Shown here: positions 45,547 to 51,746 of the stretch, one piece after another
Position numbering within the stretch: the stretch's first letter is position 1
How the letters are laid out: each line of letters starts with the position of its first letter
Source of the DNA: Candidatus Kapaibacterium sp.
GTDB taxonomy: Bacteria; Bacteroidota; Ignavibacteria; Kapaibacteriales; HRBIN21
NCBI GenBank assembly: GCA_025059875.1
Contig: JANXCT010000001.1
Span: 62,001 to 126,000, forward strand
Direction of reading: 5' to 3'
Length of the DNA: 64,000 bases
The notes under the pieces: generated by a model
Databases searched by the model: none
Seen by the model: the letters and a program-made list of their open reading frames with translations, nothing else
Told to the model about the DNA's origin: nothing
Translations under genes and position numbers: made by a program

Positions 45547-45653
45547 GTAGTGAGCGGAGAGTGGAGACGGCAAAGGGAGCCGGTTTCGTGCACAGCATTG
45601 CTACAGCTATCCGTCCTGCGGCATCGGAGAGAGTATGACGGTAGGCGTTGGGG

Positions 45654-46952
45654 ATGTCTCAAGCAGTAGTCGTTGGTGCCGGGGTAGCGGGTATGTCTGC
45701 AGCGGTCCACCTCACTCTCCGTGGTTGGAGGGTGAAGTTAGTAGAGGCTGCTATCACTGTTGGCGGACGAGCTACCTCGGTGTGGGACTCCGTGGCCGGG
45801 GAGTTCGTAGACTGTGGCCAGCACGTCTTCATCGGAGCCTATCGAGAGTTCCTTGCTCTGCTTCGCATCATAGGTTCGGAGCACTTGGTCGGAAGCGGGG
45901 GACCGTTGCGCTTTCAGTTCTGGGACGGAGAACAGCACTTTCTGTTTGACGCGGGCCGGATGCCGGGGCGGCTTGGGTTCCTAGCAGCCCTGAATTGTCT
46001 GCCGGGGATGAAGGCTATAGACAAGCTTCGGCTCTTCAGAGCGCTATGGGACCTGGCAGTGCGGGGCATCCCAGAGACTCCTGTTGCTGAGTTTCTTCGA
46101 CGCTCTCGGCAGTCTCTAGCGGCGCAGAGGGCCTTCTGGTGGCCGATGACGCTGGCAACACTCAATACAACGCCAGAGGAGGCCTCGGTAACGCTGTTGC
46201 GAGTTGTGCTTCGCGAGGGCTTTTTGCAAGGCTCTGTAGCAGCCCGATTCATAGTGCCAAGTTGCAGCTTGTTGGAATTGTTTCAGCCGATAGCGGGATG
46301 GTTGGAAAGCCACGGCGGGGAACTTCGGCTCGGCGTGACTGCGGAAGCAGTGCTCTATGGCAGTTCCCAAGTATATGGAATTCGTATCCGTGGAGGTGAG
46401 CTGCTACGAGCTGACGCCGTCATACTGGCGGTCCCACCTTGGGTCTTGCCTCGGCTTTTCCCAGCATTGCTGCATCTGCCCGAGTATCGTTGCTTTCTGG
46501 AGTCTGCCAGCTACTCACCGATCGTCACGCTCTACCTTTGGCTGAGAGAGCCTCTAATGACGGAGCCTATCTGTGCCTTTGCGCATCCTGACCTCCACTG
46601 GGCTTTTCGGCGTCCGACGCGGTATGGCGCGGAAGTCGTAGCGCTCGTGACGAGTGCAGCGGATCATCTGCTGCATCTGCCGCGGCAGATGCTAGTGGAA
46701 CGCCTGCTAAAGGCTTTCGTCAAGGCCTTTCCTACGTTTCGCTTAGAGCTGGTCCTACGCCAGCGCCTCATGGTAGAGCGACGAGCAACCCTAAAGGTGA
46801 CTCCGACCTTAAATGCGCTCCGACCTTCGGGAGTGACTCAGTGGCCTAACCTTATGCTAGCTGGAGATTGGCTCCAGACAGGGTTCCCCTGCACCTTGGA
46901 AGGAGCTGCTTGCAGCGGACGTGCTGCTGCTGAGGCTCTCGCAGAGTCATGA
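45654..46952 (+). CDS. hpnE: Hydroxysqualene dehydroxylase HpnE-like FAD-dependent amine oxidase
   Basis: 432 residues from the ATG at 45654; a TTG at 45648 would add two. The dinucleotide-binding [20 protein letters not shown] is at the start, followed by [10 protein letters not shown] and [20 protein letters not shown], which is the HpnE/squalene-associated desaturase pattern. A late [26 protein letters not shown] closes the FAD site. HpnE removes the hydroxyl from hydroxysqualene in the HpnCDE route to squalene, so hopanoid or carotenoid synthesis is implied; hpnC, hpnD and a cyclase are not in this window. Confidence 0.88.
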
Positions 46953-47247: not shown

Positions 47248-48204
47248 ATGGTCGTGGCAGCTCGCGAGGACTTTCCAGCAGTTCGACTACGACTGACTCA
47301 GGTGCTGGATTATGTCAACGGTTTCCTCGAGTCTGCAACACAGCAGAGCGAAGCTACGCGGCAGACCTATGCCCGGACGCTTCGGGAGTTTGCTTACTTC
47401 TTCACTCGCGATCGACGCTTCTTTTTCCGCCCCCGAGATGTGGAACGCTACCGGCGGTATCTGACAAGGATTAGGCGCCTGCGACCAGCATCGGTTGCGA
47501 CGTATATGACAGCACTCCGCCGCTTTTGCCAGTACCTGGTGGACAGTGGTGTTCTAGAGCGCAACCCTGCGCGGCGAGTGCCAGGTGCCCAACGCCCGCA
47601 GCAACACAGTCGCAGCTTCCTAACGGCCGATGAAGTGCGGCGGCTGTTAGAGAGCATAGAGACGGGAACAGCTGAAGGACTTCGGGACCGAGCCCTGGTC
47701 CTCATGATGTTGGGATGTGCATGTTCGGAGCGTGAGCTCTCGTTGGCCAATATTGGCGACATTCGGCGGCAGGGGAAACGGTGGGTCATCTACCTTCAGG
47801 GAAAGGGACGGAAGGCAAAGGACGAACTCATTCCAATCCCACCGGCAGTGTACAGTGAGCTCCGAAAGTACCTGGAAGCGCGTGGCGAGGTCAGAGCTGA
47901 GGATCCTCTGTTTATCAGCTACAGTCCCCGTAGCTACGGTCAGCGGATGAGTGTTCGAGGGATTCGAGAGGTGGTCAATCAACGCCTGAAAGAGGCGGCC
48001 ATCAAGGGAGAGCGGCGGTTGCGACTAACACCGTTCTCACTCCGCCATACAGCAGGCATACTCTTGGCCGAGAGCGGGGCGTCAGTAGAGGAGATTATGG
48101 AACGAATGCGTATCCGCTGGCGTCCGACGGCTCTACTCTACTTTCGCCAGCGGGGTAGGGTAGGGAGTGACCCAGAGTTGCAAGCGCTGGTACGATTGAA
48201 GTAG
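47248..48204 (+). CDS. Tyrosine recombinase, Xer/phage-integrase family, altered catalytic residues
   Basis: 318 residues. The N-terminal SAM-like DNA-binding domain (about 15-110) and the C-terminal catalytic fold are recognisable (TRQTYARTLREFAYFF; FLTADEVRRLLE; LRDRALVLMMLG). The nucleophile Tyr298 stands in TALLYF. The usual active-site set is altered: the first Arg of GLRxSEL appears as CSERELS, the HxxR motif reads PFSLRHT with Phe263 in place of His, and the later His/Trp position is not clearly met (nearest W291). Lys186 in GKGRK is present. Distances match XerD. The enzyme may bind DNA without normal cleavage, or use a variant chemistry. It is followed by a lipoprotein and a barrel gene. 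Confidence 0.85.
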   Translation: MVVAAREDFPAVRLRLTQVLDYVNGFLESATQQSEATRQTYARTLREFAYFFTRDRRFFFRPRDVERYRRYLTRIRRLRPASVATYMTALRRFCQYLVDSGVLERNPARRVPGAQRPQQHSRSFLTADEVRRLLESIETGTAEGLRDRALVLMMLGCACSERELSLANIGDIRRQGKRWVIYLQGKGRKAKDELIPIPPAVYSELRKYLEARGEVRAEDPLFISYSPRSYGQRMSVRGIREVVNQRLKEAAIKGERRLRLTPFSLRHTAGILLAESGASVEEIMERMRIRWRPTALLYFRQRGRVGSDPELQALVRLK

Positions 48205-48228: not shown

Positions 48229-50328
48229 ATGGTGACCCGTGACCTAGTGGAACGTACGTGGCCGAAGGCTGTGATTGCATTTCTTCTCGGCTTGGTAGGA
48301 TGTTCTGAGATCCCGACTCGGTTTCTGGCGCCGGAGGTTCCTCTCACGCTCCAGGTGCCGCTCGTAGACTCTACGCTCTTCCTTGGAGACCTGGTGGAGG
48401 ATACGTCCCAGGTAATCGTTGAACCCGGGACGGGAAATATCGCTCTGGCACTAGCAGGTGAATTGTCTCCTGTGAACCTTGCGCAGCACCTGGGTCGCAT
48501 CGAGGAACTCCGTCTGGAGCGACAATTTTCGGTCAACGAGATTGCCGGCATCCGACAACGCTTTGAAGAGTGGCAGGAACCAGTTCTGCAGACTTCACTG
48601 CGCACGCTCTTCCCTGGTCTTCCAGAGCCACCGTCGAGCGAGAGCATTCCTAGCACGAGTGGATCACTCGTCATCGACTCGCTCCTCAGACTCCCGGAGG
48701 GGATCATAGAGGTTGCCTACCGCCAAGGGGAGCTGGCGTTTGTGTTGGAGAACCGTTATCCAGTGCCGGTGGTAGTAGAAGAAGCTCCGGGATACGGGCG
48801 ACCAGGGATTGTCATACGCACGGATGGAGTAGGGGAGTGGTTCTTCCCCTTGACCGAGTTCCAGAGGAGTATTCCTGCCGGTGCAACTCGGGGACGGACG
48901 ACGGATCCTGGCGGGGAGATTCGGATGCCATTGACTGGAGTTGTGTTAGGTCAGCGCTCGCGGATCATTCTCGCAGTGAGCTCTCCAGGGAGCGGTGGGC
49001 AGGTTGTATCGTACACGTCGGAGAGCCTCTTCTCCATCTTCTGCCAGCCCCAGGAGGTTGGCATAGAGTGGGCGCGGATCGCCCCTCGGGAGTGGACAGC
49101 AGAGCTAGTGCTGGAGCTACCGCTCCCGTATGGCGCTGAGCTTACGGATGGGAAGGGCCGCAGCCTTAGGGCCCGTGTAGAGATGCGGAATGACTTGCCA
49201 CTGGGATTCCAGGGGCATAGTCGTCTGGGGCAGTTGTTGTGCGGTGCTGAGCCTCTCCAACGGGCCTTTTCGTTAGCTCCTATGAGCTCGGATACGCAAG
49301 TTGTCGAGTGCGCGGGGCCGGTATTCCTTCGCCCAGAGCCAGAAGACAACGGAGTCGTTCGAACCCTCCGACTGCGAGTTGCACTACTGGTGCAGCCACC
49401 TGGGCAACCTGTCGTGATTCGTGCGGCGGATGTCATAGAGGTAAACGTCGTCGTTGCGGAGTTTATCCTTGAGCACGCAAGCGGCACGCGCTTACCCGTC
49501 GTAAGCTTTGAGTTCCACACAGAGTCGGAGGTGTGGCTTCGGGGGAATCTTGGGCTGCTTTCGGAAGTCGAAGTGGAATTGAGCGAGGTGCTTGTTGAAG
49601 TGGAACTAGAAAACTCGGCTGCGGTGGGCTTCCGCGTAGAAGGGAGGCTCGAGATTGCTGACCGAAACAAGACTGTTATGGCGCGCTTGCCCATCCCATC
49701 ACAACAGCTACAAGCTGCCCAGGAGGAAGGAGGGGCTATTGTCCCCCAGCAGACACGTTGGGAGCTTCGCTATGCTGAAGTGCGTTTGGTCAATCGGCCG
49801 CGATTCGTGCGCTTCCTGCTCTCTGTACATCCCCAGGCCTCAGGCCACTGGGCGTTCGTAGACACTAGCCAGCTCCGTGGCAGAGTACAAGTGCTCCTCC
49901 CGCTTCGTCTTCGGGCCCAGCGTCTGCTCTACGAGCAGGAGTGGAGCTTCACTGGCGGAGAGCAACTACGTAGGCAGGGGCAGCGGGTAGAACGGGCTAC
50001 GGTCGTCATGGAGGTGAAGAATCGAATCCCGATAGCGGTACATCTCCGTCTCGTGCTATCGGACACATTGGGCTGGGTGCAGGTGCCGCCAGATGGGGAG
50101 TTGTTCGTTGCTGCGGCTCCCGTAAGCCCCTCTGGCATTGCGGTAGGGGAGCAGTATACCGTGCAGCGCTTTGAGCTAGATGAGCGGCATCTCCCTGGGA
50201 TACTGCAAGCAAATCGTCTCAAGGTTTGGTTGGCAGCTGCTACGACCGCGCAGCAGTACGTACGAATTCGCACCTCGGACTATGTTTCGCTCCGGGCGTC
50301 GCTCCGGGCGGAGCTGAGCGTTCCGTAA
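48229..50328 (+). CDS. Large lipoprotein of unknown function
   Basis: 699 residues. Signal ends in lipobox LVGC with Cys25. The mature part is beta-rich with alternating hydrophobic strands, no recognised catalytic motif and no clear repeats; it includes a helical hairpin at about 75-110 (NLAQHLGRIEELRLERQF, EIAGIRQRFEEW). It lies 24 bases after the recombinase gene and ends 20 bases before the barrel gene, so the lipoprotein and barrel probably act together at the outer membrane. I do not recognise a family. Confidence 0.72.
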   Translation: MVTRDLVERTWPKAVIAFLLGLVGCSEIPTRFLAPEVPLTLQVPLVDSTLFLGDLVEDTSQVIVEPGTGNIALALAGELSPVNLAQHLGRIEELRLERQFSVNEIAGIRQRFEEWQEPVLQTSLRTLFPGLPEPPSSESIPSTSGSLVIDSLLRLPEGIIEVAYRQGELAFVLENRYPVPVVVEEAPGYGRPGIVIRTDGVGEWFFPLTEFQRSIPAGATRGRTTDPGGEIRMPLTGVVLGQRSRIILAVSSPGSGGQVVSYTSESLFSIFCQPQEVGIEWARIAPREWTAELVLELPLPYGAELTDGKGRSLRARVEMRNDLPLGFQGHSRLGQLLCGAEPLQRAFSLAPMSSDTQVVECAGPVFLRPEPEDNGVVRTLRLRVALLVQPPGQPVVIRAADVIEVNVVVAEFILEHASGTRLPVVSFEFHTESEVWLRGNLGLLSEVEVELSEVLVEVELENSAAVGFRVEGRLEIADRNKTVMARLPIPSQQLQAAQEEGGAIVPQQTRWELRYAEVRLVNRPRFVRFLLSVHPQASGHWAFVDTSQLRGRVQVLLPLRLRAQRLLYEQEWSFTGGEQLRRQGQRVERATVVMEVKNRIPIAVHLRLVLSDTLGWVQVPPDGELFVAAAPVSPSGIAVGEQYTVQRFELDERHLPGILQANRLKVWLAAATTAQQYVRIRTSDYVSLRASLRAELSVP

Positions 50329-50348
50329 GGCAGCACGTGGCAGGTCTC

Positions 50349-51746
50349 ATGTCGCGGCAGATAGTGTTGCTCTCAGCACTCGCCACAGCTCTCTCAGCGT
50401 ACTCTCAGCCCCTTGCAGGAGCCCAAGGAGGGGCACTCAGCGCTACGGCCCTGGGGGCAGCAGCGCTGGTGGCGAATCCAGCAGGCATGTCTTCAGGGAT
50501 GAGCACATGGGAAATCGCTCTTCCGGAGTTCTCTGCAACGGTGGGCGGGATAACGCTGCGGGAGTATGCCTTCTACTTCGGCGGGGTACGCACTTCTACT
50601 GGTTGGCAACGACGCCGCCTAACTCTGGAAGAGCGCGAGGAGTTTGTACGATTGCTCGAGAGTCGGCCCCATACATTCTCCCTCCGAGCAGGAACTCTCG
50701 CAGGGGTGTGGCGTCCTAGTCCATCGTATGCTGTGGGATTCGGATCCCGAACGGAGCTCTGGCTGCGGATACAACTACCCCGGGGGACGGTAGAGGCCGC
50801 TCAACAGCCCATCATAGGGAGCGATACAGCGGAGCTGCTTGGGGGGACGTTCTCGCTGCGTGCATATTCGGTGCTAACGGCTGCCTATGCTCGGGCTCTT
50901 TGGCAAGCTGACACTATGCAAGGCTGGCGCCCTCGACGGCTCTTGGGCGGAGTCGCCCTTCATCTCTACCGAGGTCACGAGTACGTAGAGGTCCTGCCAG
51001 GAGGAAGGATACGCCTTGAACCTTTTATGCCCGAGTCCTGGGACAGCACGCTAAGCTGGGACATTAGCATACAGCAGAGGTGGCGTCTGGGAACGTCTGG
51101 CAGCGCCGCACTCCCGCTCCTTATTGGCGTAGCTCCAGCAATTGGCTGGGGGGCAGGGGTAAGCATTGGCCTCCGTTGGGAGTGGCAGACAGTGGATACT
51201 GTACCTCCCCAGGTGGCTGCAACCCTATCGTTGGAACACGCAGGGTTCCTTCGGTGGAGTCTTACCGAGGCTGTCTTGCGCTCTCGGGATACGCTCTCTG
51301 GAATTCTCGGCGAAGAGGAGGAGCTCCAGAGGCGCTACACGCCTCTAAAGGAGGCGAGCACCGTAGTCGAACGGATGCCAGCACGGCTGCGGATTGGAGC
51401 CACTGTGGAGATGGTCGCTCTTGGAGTAGAATCGCCGTTGAGACTTGCCGTAGAGTACGCACATGGGTTAGGGCCCACATGGTCATTGCCGGGTCCGAGC
51501 GCTGGGTTAGGCTTGATGTACCGAGGGCTGACGTGGATGCCACAGATAGCGATAGGGCTAATGTGGAGCCATGCACTCGGACTGCAGGTGCCGTTGGGAC
51601 TGCAGTGGACGTCACCTCGGTTCTGGGGTGTGCGTACTGTGGTTGAGGTGGCCACGAACTCGCTCCTCGGCTGGCTACTGCGGGGGACGATACGCAACGT
51701 TCATGCAGAGATGTACGTGAGGATAATGCGGCCAGCAGCTCCCTAA
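50349..51746 (+). CDS. Outer-membrane beta-barrel protein (DUF5723/PorV-like style)
   Basis: 465 residues from the ATG at 50349, the first good start after the lipoprotein stop, opening a signal peptide (MSRQIVLLSALATALSAYSQ). The mature part begins with GALSATALGAAALVANPAG, similar to the start of PorV/FadL/DUF5723 proteins, followed by about 14-18 amphipathic strands. A role as an outer-membrane channel or scaffold with the upstream lipoprotein is inferred from position. It converges on the asparaginase gene and shares a 4-base CTAA overlap with its stop. Confidence 0.72.
   Translation: MSRQIVLLSALATALSAYSQPLAGAQGGALSATALGAAALVANPAGMSSGMSTWEIALPEFSATVGGITLREYAFYFGGVRTSTGWQRRRLTLEEREEFVRLLESRPHTFSLRAGTLAGVWRPSPSYAVGFGSRTELWLRIQLPRGTVEAAQQPIIGSDTAELLGGTFSLRAYSVLTAAYARALWQADTMQGWRPRRLLGGVALHLYRGHEYVEVLPGGRIRLEPFMPESWDSTLSWDISIQQRWRLGTSGSAALPLLIGVAPAIGWGAGVSIGLRWEWQTVDTVPPQVAATLSLEHAGFLRWSLTEAVLRSRDTLSGILGEEEELQRRYTPLKEASTVVERMPARLRIGATVEMVALGVESPLRLAVEYAHGLGPTWSLPGPSAGLGLMYRGLTWMPQIAIGLMWSHALGLQVPLGLQWTSPRFWGVRTVVEVATNSLLGWLLRGTIRNVHAEMYVRIMRPAAP

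Follow-up and report, generated by a model that had tools for sequence, protein, structure and literature searches.

The gene at positions 47248 to 48204 of the window (the whole 64,000-nucleotide stretch of a Candidatus Kapaibacterium contig analysed here) encodes a protein that resembles the tyrosine recombinases XerC and XerD, and yet several catalytic residues of these enzymes are replaced in it. This raises the question of whether the protein still performs recombination chemistry or has been turned to another use. The gene and its domains are as follows.

47248..48204, + strand: catalytically degenerate tyrosine-recombinase (Xer-like) gene; open reading frame with an ATG start, 318 amino acids, PF00589 match and AlphaFold2 model
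47287..47577, + strand: core-binding (SAM-like, N-terminal) domain, approximately residues 14-110, from Pfam matches and the helices of the model
47608..48159, + strand: catalytic-fold domain, approximately residues 121-304, from PF00589 and structural alignment to XerA, XerH and Cre

Pfam analysis of the window protein showed a match of residues 124-287 to PF00589 (61.3 bits, against a gathering cut-off of 27.1), and the N-terminal part matched Phage_int_SAM_1, 4 and 5, all above their cut-offs. Only SAM-like and integrase domains were seen, and no zinc finger was found by Pfam; PHROGs returned a generic integrase only, and PADLOC gave no match. The top NCBIfam scores were to XerC (TIGR02224, 99.5 bits) and XerD (TIGR02225, 95.9 bits), and missed the respective equivalog cut-offs of 335.15 and 329.6. 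An AlphaFold2 model (pLDDT 90.2, pTM 0.64) was generated from alignment A3, comprising the window protein and 34 relatives, which was derived from alignment A2 by removing the canonical sequence L091; the generic recombinase L092 was excluded from counts. The N-terminal domain of the model consists of four long helices. VIA-align matched the model to XerA (Z 20.4, 257 aligned, rmsd 12.0), XerH (Z 19.6, 279 aligned, 5.2 A) and Cre (Z ~19), where the large rmsd with XerA perhaps reflects a domain movement. A two-domain tyrosine-recombinase fold is predicted with confidence for the window protein.

We then aligned the protein with 16 canonical Xers, including both complete Xers of the window's own genome. 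The catalytic set of the window protein reads S-K-F-R-I-Y, as against the canonical R-K-H-R-H/W-Y. Conservation at these and two further positions was scored in 40 relatives of the window type (the window's own row included) and in 98 family rows. The 98-row set leaves out family f16, the divergent branch and the fragments L031 and L088, both of which were kept in the alignment scored for the window type.

47725..47727, + strand: Ser160, at the Arg I position; S in 35/40 and A in 5/40 window-type rows, R in 16/16 canonical rows
47728..47730, + strand: Glu161, conserved and family-specific; E in 97% of 98 family rows, 0/16 canonical
47803..47805, + strand: Lys186, the hairpin lysine, retained; 40/40 window-type
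48034..48036, + strand: Phe263, at the His II position; F in 40/40 window-type, H in 16/16 canonical
48043..48045, + strand: Arg266, that is Arg II, retained; 40/40 window-type
48103..48105, + strand: Arg286, conserved family-specific arginine; R in 89% of 98 family rows, 0/16 canonical
48112..48114, + strand: Ile289, at the His/Trp III position; I in 38/40 and L in 2/40 window-type, H in 16/16 canonical
48139..48141, + strand: Tyr298, at the nucleophile position, retained; 40/40 window-type, 0/6 rows of f16

All six catalytic residues were present in 16/16 controls, a group defined after the alignment had been viewed, as fetched rows from outside the family scoring at or below ~100 bits against the family profile. 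The 40 window-type rows, in contrast, have identical losses at three positions and identical retentions at the other three, and this shared pattern is far beyond chance. The acidic residue three positions past Arg I, Glu163, is also retained in the window protein. An earlier note, made from the window sequence, had claimed that Tyr298 and Lys186 are kept, that the HxxR histidine is Phe263, that the GLRxSEL arginine region reads CSERELS and that the last His/Trp position is not at its usual distance. The alignment bears out these observations: Ser160 aligns with Arg I, and Ile289 occupies the last position, with W291 lying two residues further on. The replacements were also conserved in orthologues, a check that the note had proposed. 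Its statement that most catalytic residues are replaced holds for Arg I, His II and His/Trp III, but these are only three of six (three of seven if Glu163 is counted), and Arg II is in place.

Residues nearby could in principle stand in for those lost, and the earlier note had named R162 and H267 as candidates. Residue 162 is an arginine in just 11 of the 40 window-type rows, with V, L, I, H or Q elsewhere, and R162 was rejected as a variable position. H267 was found in every window-type row but equally in 16/16 canonical Xers, and was rejected as a relocated catalytic residue on that account. W291, although invariant among window-type rows, is replaced by S, K or T in the group of relatives linked to leuS (see below). 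R288 is not a replacement arginine, because it is also present in three relatives with complete sites.

Strong matches to the window protein (E<=1e-40) were found in 41 of 99 relatives of the same order; families f2 and f3 of the order mostly have none, and the same is true of some genomes from families that do. Profile searches gave a strong match in 71/294 genomes of the class (E<=1e-40) and, across the phylum, a match in 86/395 genomes (E<=1e-32), one each, from which 36 loci outside the class were taken out of 59 matching genomes. The family is mostly single-copy, with two copies in the class genome G276. When 84,980 species genomes were scanned for two signature peptides, a search that misses family members without those peptides, 41 loci were returned. 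The weakest two (L091 and L092) are generic recombinases, and the others carry names from Kapabacteria, Ignavibacteria, Chlorobiota and Bacteroidota, the exceptions being one 'Armatimonadetes' and two unplaced bacteria.

Trees rooted with canonical Xers (quick IQ-TREE runs, with SH-aLRT as the sole support measure) recovered the family as one clade, with an SH-aLRT of 99 in both the 79-row and the 37-row tree; rows of f16 and f3 sit on long branches and their placement is unsure. Sister to this clade are three proteins with complete sites. L199 (124 bits), one of the phylum matches, has all six residues, falls outside the clade, and was counted as a complete-site relative. One of the three, among the closest complete-site relatives of the family, lies in a phage-like segment at L145 (G167:C44, 155-5112), in tandem with a second tyrosine recombinase and together with genes for a phage replication protein O and a DnaB helicase. 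The within-class tree, built after removal of near-duplicate rows, mostly mirrors the taxonomic families; vertical inheritance fits this, and the inheritance of the family looks vertical.

Analysis of the catalytic columns along the tree showed a complete six-residue site in none of the 111 aligned family rows. Arg I is missing in 110 of them, and the sole arginine at position 160 occurs in L196, which has Gln at 266. While S-K-F-R-I-Y is the pattern of most window-type rows, S-K-[Y/F/L]-R-[L/I]-Y is found in 17/25 leuS-linked rows and mostly T-K-D-R-F-I in f16. Outside the class, 16/36 loci read S-K-H-T-H-Y, with both arginines gone and both histidines kept, and Arg II is T in 22/35 rows. The sets of f54 are heavily decayed, several residues being gone, and divergent rows of f9 and f3 keep the lysine in 1/7. 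Two very divergent family-like proteins of f3, L043 (G094) and L044 (G007), lie on very long branches, with the lysine hairpin missing or gapped and the tyrosine lost in one; f3 is otherwise without strong matches. Counted along the branches, the minimum number of kept/lost changes was two each for Arg I and His III, four for Tyr, five each for His II and Arg II, and six for Lys. In the simplest history, Arg I appears to have been lost once at the base of the clade and to have returned once, in L196, with the remaining catalytic residues then lost in lineage-specific combinations. Decay of this kind is how a protein behaves when the chemistry is no longer required of it.

Sequence constraint was estimated from NG86 dN/dS in 20 family pairs, some of which share sequences. 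Values of 0.015-0.285 were obtained in 16 pairs and the other four were saturated; both pairs containing the window's own gene are among the saturated ones, so that these figures cover relatives only. The measurable relatives are under purifying selection. Across 35 family sequences, 44 columns are invariant. In addition, eight arginines (R43, R116, R122, R228, R237, R240, R286 and R288) are conserved in 87-98% of the 98 family rows, and the same positions hold an arginine in 0 to 3 of the 16 canonical Xers.

The setting of the gene was compared between lineages, beginning with its neighbours in the window.

45648..46952, + strand: upstream gene for hydroxysqualene dehydroxylase HpnE; TIGR03467, 355.5 bits against a cut-off of 283
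48229..50328, + strand: downstream gene for a 699-amino-acid protein, 24 nucleotides past the stop; no Pfam or NCBIfam match, not seen next to the gene outside the window's genus

The protein predicted at 50226-51746 likewise had no Pfam or NCBIfam match and was seen as a neighbour of the gene in this genus alone, where the order is HpnE (in some members), the recombinase-like gene, a protein of 700-800 amino acids and a putative barrel. The earlier description of the gene as heading a lipoprotein-barrel group is therefore true locally but, among the examined loci, confined to this genus, and a functional link to the lipoprotein-barrel pair was rejected as the pairing was not seen beyond it. 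Elsewhere in the order, and likewise in f13, the gene is often followed by one for an amidase, CorA or a PBP, an amidase being near the family gene in 13 loci and a PBP in 3. All 33 fetched loci of f16, f21, f23 and f24 (L122-L144, L153-L156 and L167-L172) have leuS downstream in the same orientation, with a short open reading frame in between in L137 and L155. The gap to leuS is from -10 to 100 nucleotides in 27 of the 33, six of these loci having 4-nucleotide overlaps, and the gaps of L126 and L127 probably arise from miscalled starts. Among the 28 resolved loci outside the class, 14 have an E2 acyltransferase immediately upstream, and secA is found downstream in 10. These neighbour counts are without loci in which a longer open reading frame overlapped the gene (L054, L075, L086, L164 and 8/36 outside the class). 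Scanned neighbours of family genes were chromosomal genes or had no family match. The synteny with leuS and with cell-wall genes is real; since the partner differs between lineages, we claim no shared pathway with either. Settings that are lineage-specific but stable are consistent with vertical inheritance and not with a mobile element.

We also looked upstream of the gene in five regions from the window's genus. No 10-mer was common to at least four of the five, a single imperfect palindrome occurred in one genome, and an alignment of four of the sequences was only 50% identical.

The window's genome encodes three PF00589 proteins: the window protein, a XerD above the equivalog cut-off, and a XerC-like protein with XerC as its top match (292.6 of 335 bits), the latter two with all six catalytic residues. 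The search for a second canonical pair that the earlier note had suggested thus finds a XerD and a XerC-like protein elsewhere in the genome. TIGR02225 (XerD) was above cut-off in 22/22 tested family-bearing genomes of the window's class and in all five other tested genomes outside it (f35, f40, f50 and f62). In contrast, a search with the XerD model only gave no XerD above cut-off in any of 35 carrier genomes, drawn from 13 families outside the class, G333, G337, G354, G466 and G567 among them. A miss with this model is not proof of absence, because just 4/14 well-known control genomes exceeded its cut-off and 12 of the 35 had weaker matches (E<=1e-40, 141-188 bits); nor is co-occurrence a fair test, as these genomes were picked for carrying the family. 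A related recombinase, of the L220 type, was found in 24 of the 35, the match in G623 being weak. Arg I, both histidines, Arg II and Tyr are all present in five rows of this type, in an alignment whose Lys column is misaligned in canonical rows too. G333, a single contig, has just two PF00589 proteins, the one lacking Arg I and one of the L220 type; in other genomes of its group the number rises to as many as 12, and many of these proteins have complete sites.

Two observations on recombinases fall outside these comparisons. In genome G010 (f6, 99% complete), neither the window protein nor the A3 profile found a match at E<=0.001, in searches that gave matches in 98/99 order and 284/294 class genomes, and this organism may have an unusual Xer or none. 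Chain 14 of PDB 9i5v, named ribosome-associated inhibitor RaiA and 401 residues long, matches the recombinase profile over 14-233, which suggests either that a recombinase is fused to RaiA or that gene models were joined.

How, then, should the protein be read? If it were still an enzyme, R286, R288 or E161 would have to rebuild the site together with Lys186, Arg266 and Tyr298, and the invariance of the last three in the window type and the strong, family-specific conservation of E161 and R286 are what such an enzyme would show. We regard this as very improbable, given that Arg II is replaced by T in so many rows outside the class, that f16 lacks the tyrosine, the divergent f9 and f3 rows nearly always the lysine and f54 several residues, and that R288 is shared with complete-site relatives. 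The earlier note had left the choice between a DNA-binding relative and an enzyme with a different mechanism. The second option finds no alternative catalytic set retained across the family, R162 and H267 having failed; the first is the better supported, by the preserved fold, the loss of Arg I at the base, the varied losses thereafter and the purifying selection in relatives. The progressive loss of catalytic residues, together with weak or missing matches across several of the order's families and in part of the genomes of carrier families, might also describe a functionless relic in decay. Selection in the relatives largely contradicts this, as do the open frames and the invariant columns, and we give it next to no credence.

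The protein may instead serve the Xer/dif machinery as a non-catalytic accessory subunit, joining or blocking XerC/XerD or another active recombinase at dif-like sites and tuning synapsis or strand exchange. It shares superfamily and size with XerC/D, and in the 35 genomes with no XerD over the cut-off, many with an L220-type protein, it might be half of a pair. We nonetheless consider this role unlikely: within the class every tested carrier has XerD and no partner is missing, and outside it the XerD model is one that misses 10/14 controls, applied to genomes that were picked for the family and in part have weaker matches. For the families with no XerD over the cut-off one can also imagine a lopsided Xer pair, in which the protein lacking Arg I is the non-catalytic half beside an active L220-type recombinase and chromosome dimers are resolved by a catalytic subunit working with a structural one; the window protein would then be derived from the structural member, retained alongside an ordinary XerC/D pair. 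This idea is prompted by the lack of a XerD over the cut-off, the frequency of the L220 type and the two PF00589 proteins of G333, and is no more than a lead, since carrying the family was what the genomes were selected for. Prediction of dif in 19/19 Bacteroidetes and 11/11 Chlorobi genomes, as given in a dif survey (PMC3025954), counts against it, and we think it improbable.

The preferred reading of the window protein as a DNA-binding pseudo-recombinase has a precedent in MrpR (YopR), the master repressor of the Bacillus prophage SPbeta. According to its description (PMC10516654), MrpR has lost recombinase function and did not recombine att sites in vitro. Three of its seven catalytic residues are present (E, K and Y), with V/S at Arg I, N at His II, V at His/Trp III and V257/R258 at Arg II. 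Its structure (PDB 8A0A) has the same tyrosine-recombinase fold (VIA Z 14.0), and the window protein likewise is without Arg I, His II and His/Trp III and keeps the acidic residue, Lys and Tyr, by comparison with the residue table of that paper. Unlike in MrpR, where it is shifted, Arg II is in place in the window protein, and unlike the phage-encoded repressor, the window family is chromosomal and spread through the phylum. MrpR is absent from the 6 PDB sequences matched at E<=1e-3, and its link to the window protein is structural only. As there is no sequence match and the family is not phage-borne, we describe the window protein as working like MrpR and not as a member of its group. In the same paper, Tyr-to-Phe and Tyr-to-Ala variants of MrpR had a thermal stability ~6 degrees lower and the tyrosine was tied to DNA binding by the authors, K169A behaved as wild type, and K169A and both tyrosine variants kept lysogeny in unstressed cells. 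MrpR therefore explains the retention of the tyrosine without catalysis but not that of the lysine, since K169A was as wild type.

Other relatives were compared in the same way. XerC/XerD dimer resolvases share the fold, size and domain order of the window protein and are its top NCBIfam matches, and yet it is far under their cut-offs, three of its six catalytic residues are gone and its genome has separate Xers. The repressor SroF of phage phi3T (PDB 9RD5 and 9RGL) also has the fold (Z 15.9 and 14.7); the titles of these entries describe a DNA-bound repressor, and our literature search found no paper on SroF. TnsF, the target selector of Tn6022-like transposons, reuses an inactivated tyrosine-recombinase domain for DNA targeting, and is described in PMC10293859 as having N-terminal zinc fingers, a partial catalytic domain and Tn7 genes alongside. 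The window protein, in contrast, has a full catalytic-fold domain and no zinc finger match, and no Tn7-type transposition partner turned up among the scanned neighbours. The window family was unnamed among the literature matches listed (in four of the lists the best 15 of 16, 20 of 561, 12 of 33 and 10 of 229). The streptococcal XerD-like protein encoded near scpA is a further Xer relative without catalytic residues; it was absent among the literature matches listed, one list being the best 12 of 33. The word 'inactive' does not occur in the available portion of a classification of tyrosine recombinases (PMC8138268).

Taken together, our analysis suggests that the window protein is probably an ancient, non-catalytic, DNA-binding pseudo-recombinase of the Xer superfamily, vertically inherited and working like MrpR. 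This likely reading draws on the fold, the catalytic columns, the single clade, the dN/dS values, the arginines, the stable context, the presence of XerD and a XerC-like protein alongside, and the MrpR precedent. Parts of the cutting site have been lost and many relatives keep this state, and it is thus most likely that the protein holds DNA and does not cut it. It would no longer make phosphotyrosine intermediates, and, in the manner of Xer proteins, would clamp double-stranded DNA at specific sites, between the core-binding domain and the catalytic-fold domain. By analogy with MrpR, Tyr298 may be retained for stability and binding; Arg266 and Lys186 would perhaps contact phosphate, and the gained conserved arginines could strengthen DNA binding. 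The protein would most likely be used as a regulator or an architectural DNA-binding protein, with an MrpR-like mechanism.

Several results count against this reading. The upstream search in the window's genus revealed no shared operator in its five regions, and the invariance of Lys186, Arg266 and Tyr298 seems, judged from the alignment, to exceed what a bare DNA-binding protein would need. The failure to detect MrpR by sequence also weighs against it, as do the wild-type behaviour of K169A and the maintenance of lysogeny by the tyrosine variants in unstressed cells described for MrpR. The saturation of the window gene's own pairs, the arginine at position 160 in L196 and the occurrence of R288 in complete-site relatives are to be set on the same side.

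Proteins of this kind match general models as XerC, XerD or integrase, and counts of Xer systems based on such matches would therefore be inflated. Chromosome-dimer resolution is worth checking in the 35 family-bearing genomes without a XerD over the cut-off. The tyrosine recombinases described as having become DNA-binding proteins, as found in our literature search, are phage and transposon proteins. A chromosomal, vertically inherited family that extends beyond one class would, if our reading is true, mean that the switch to DNA binding also took place early in a cellular lineage, and that it has lasted.
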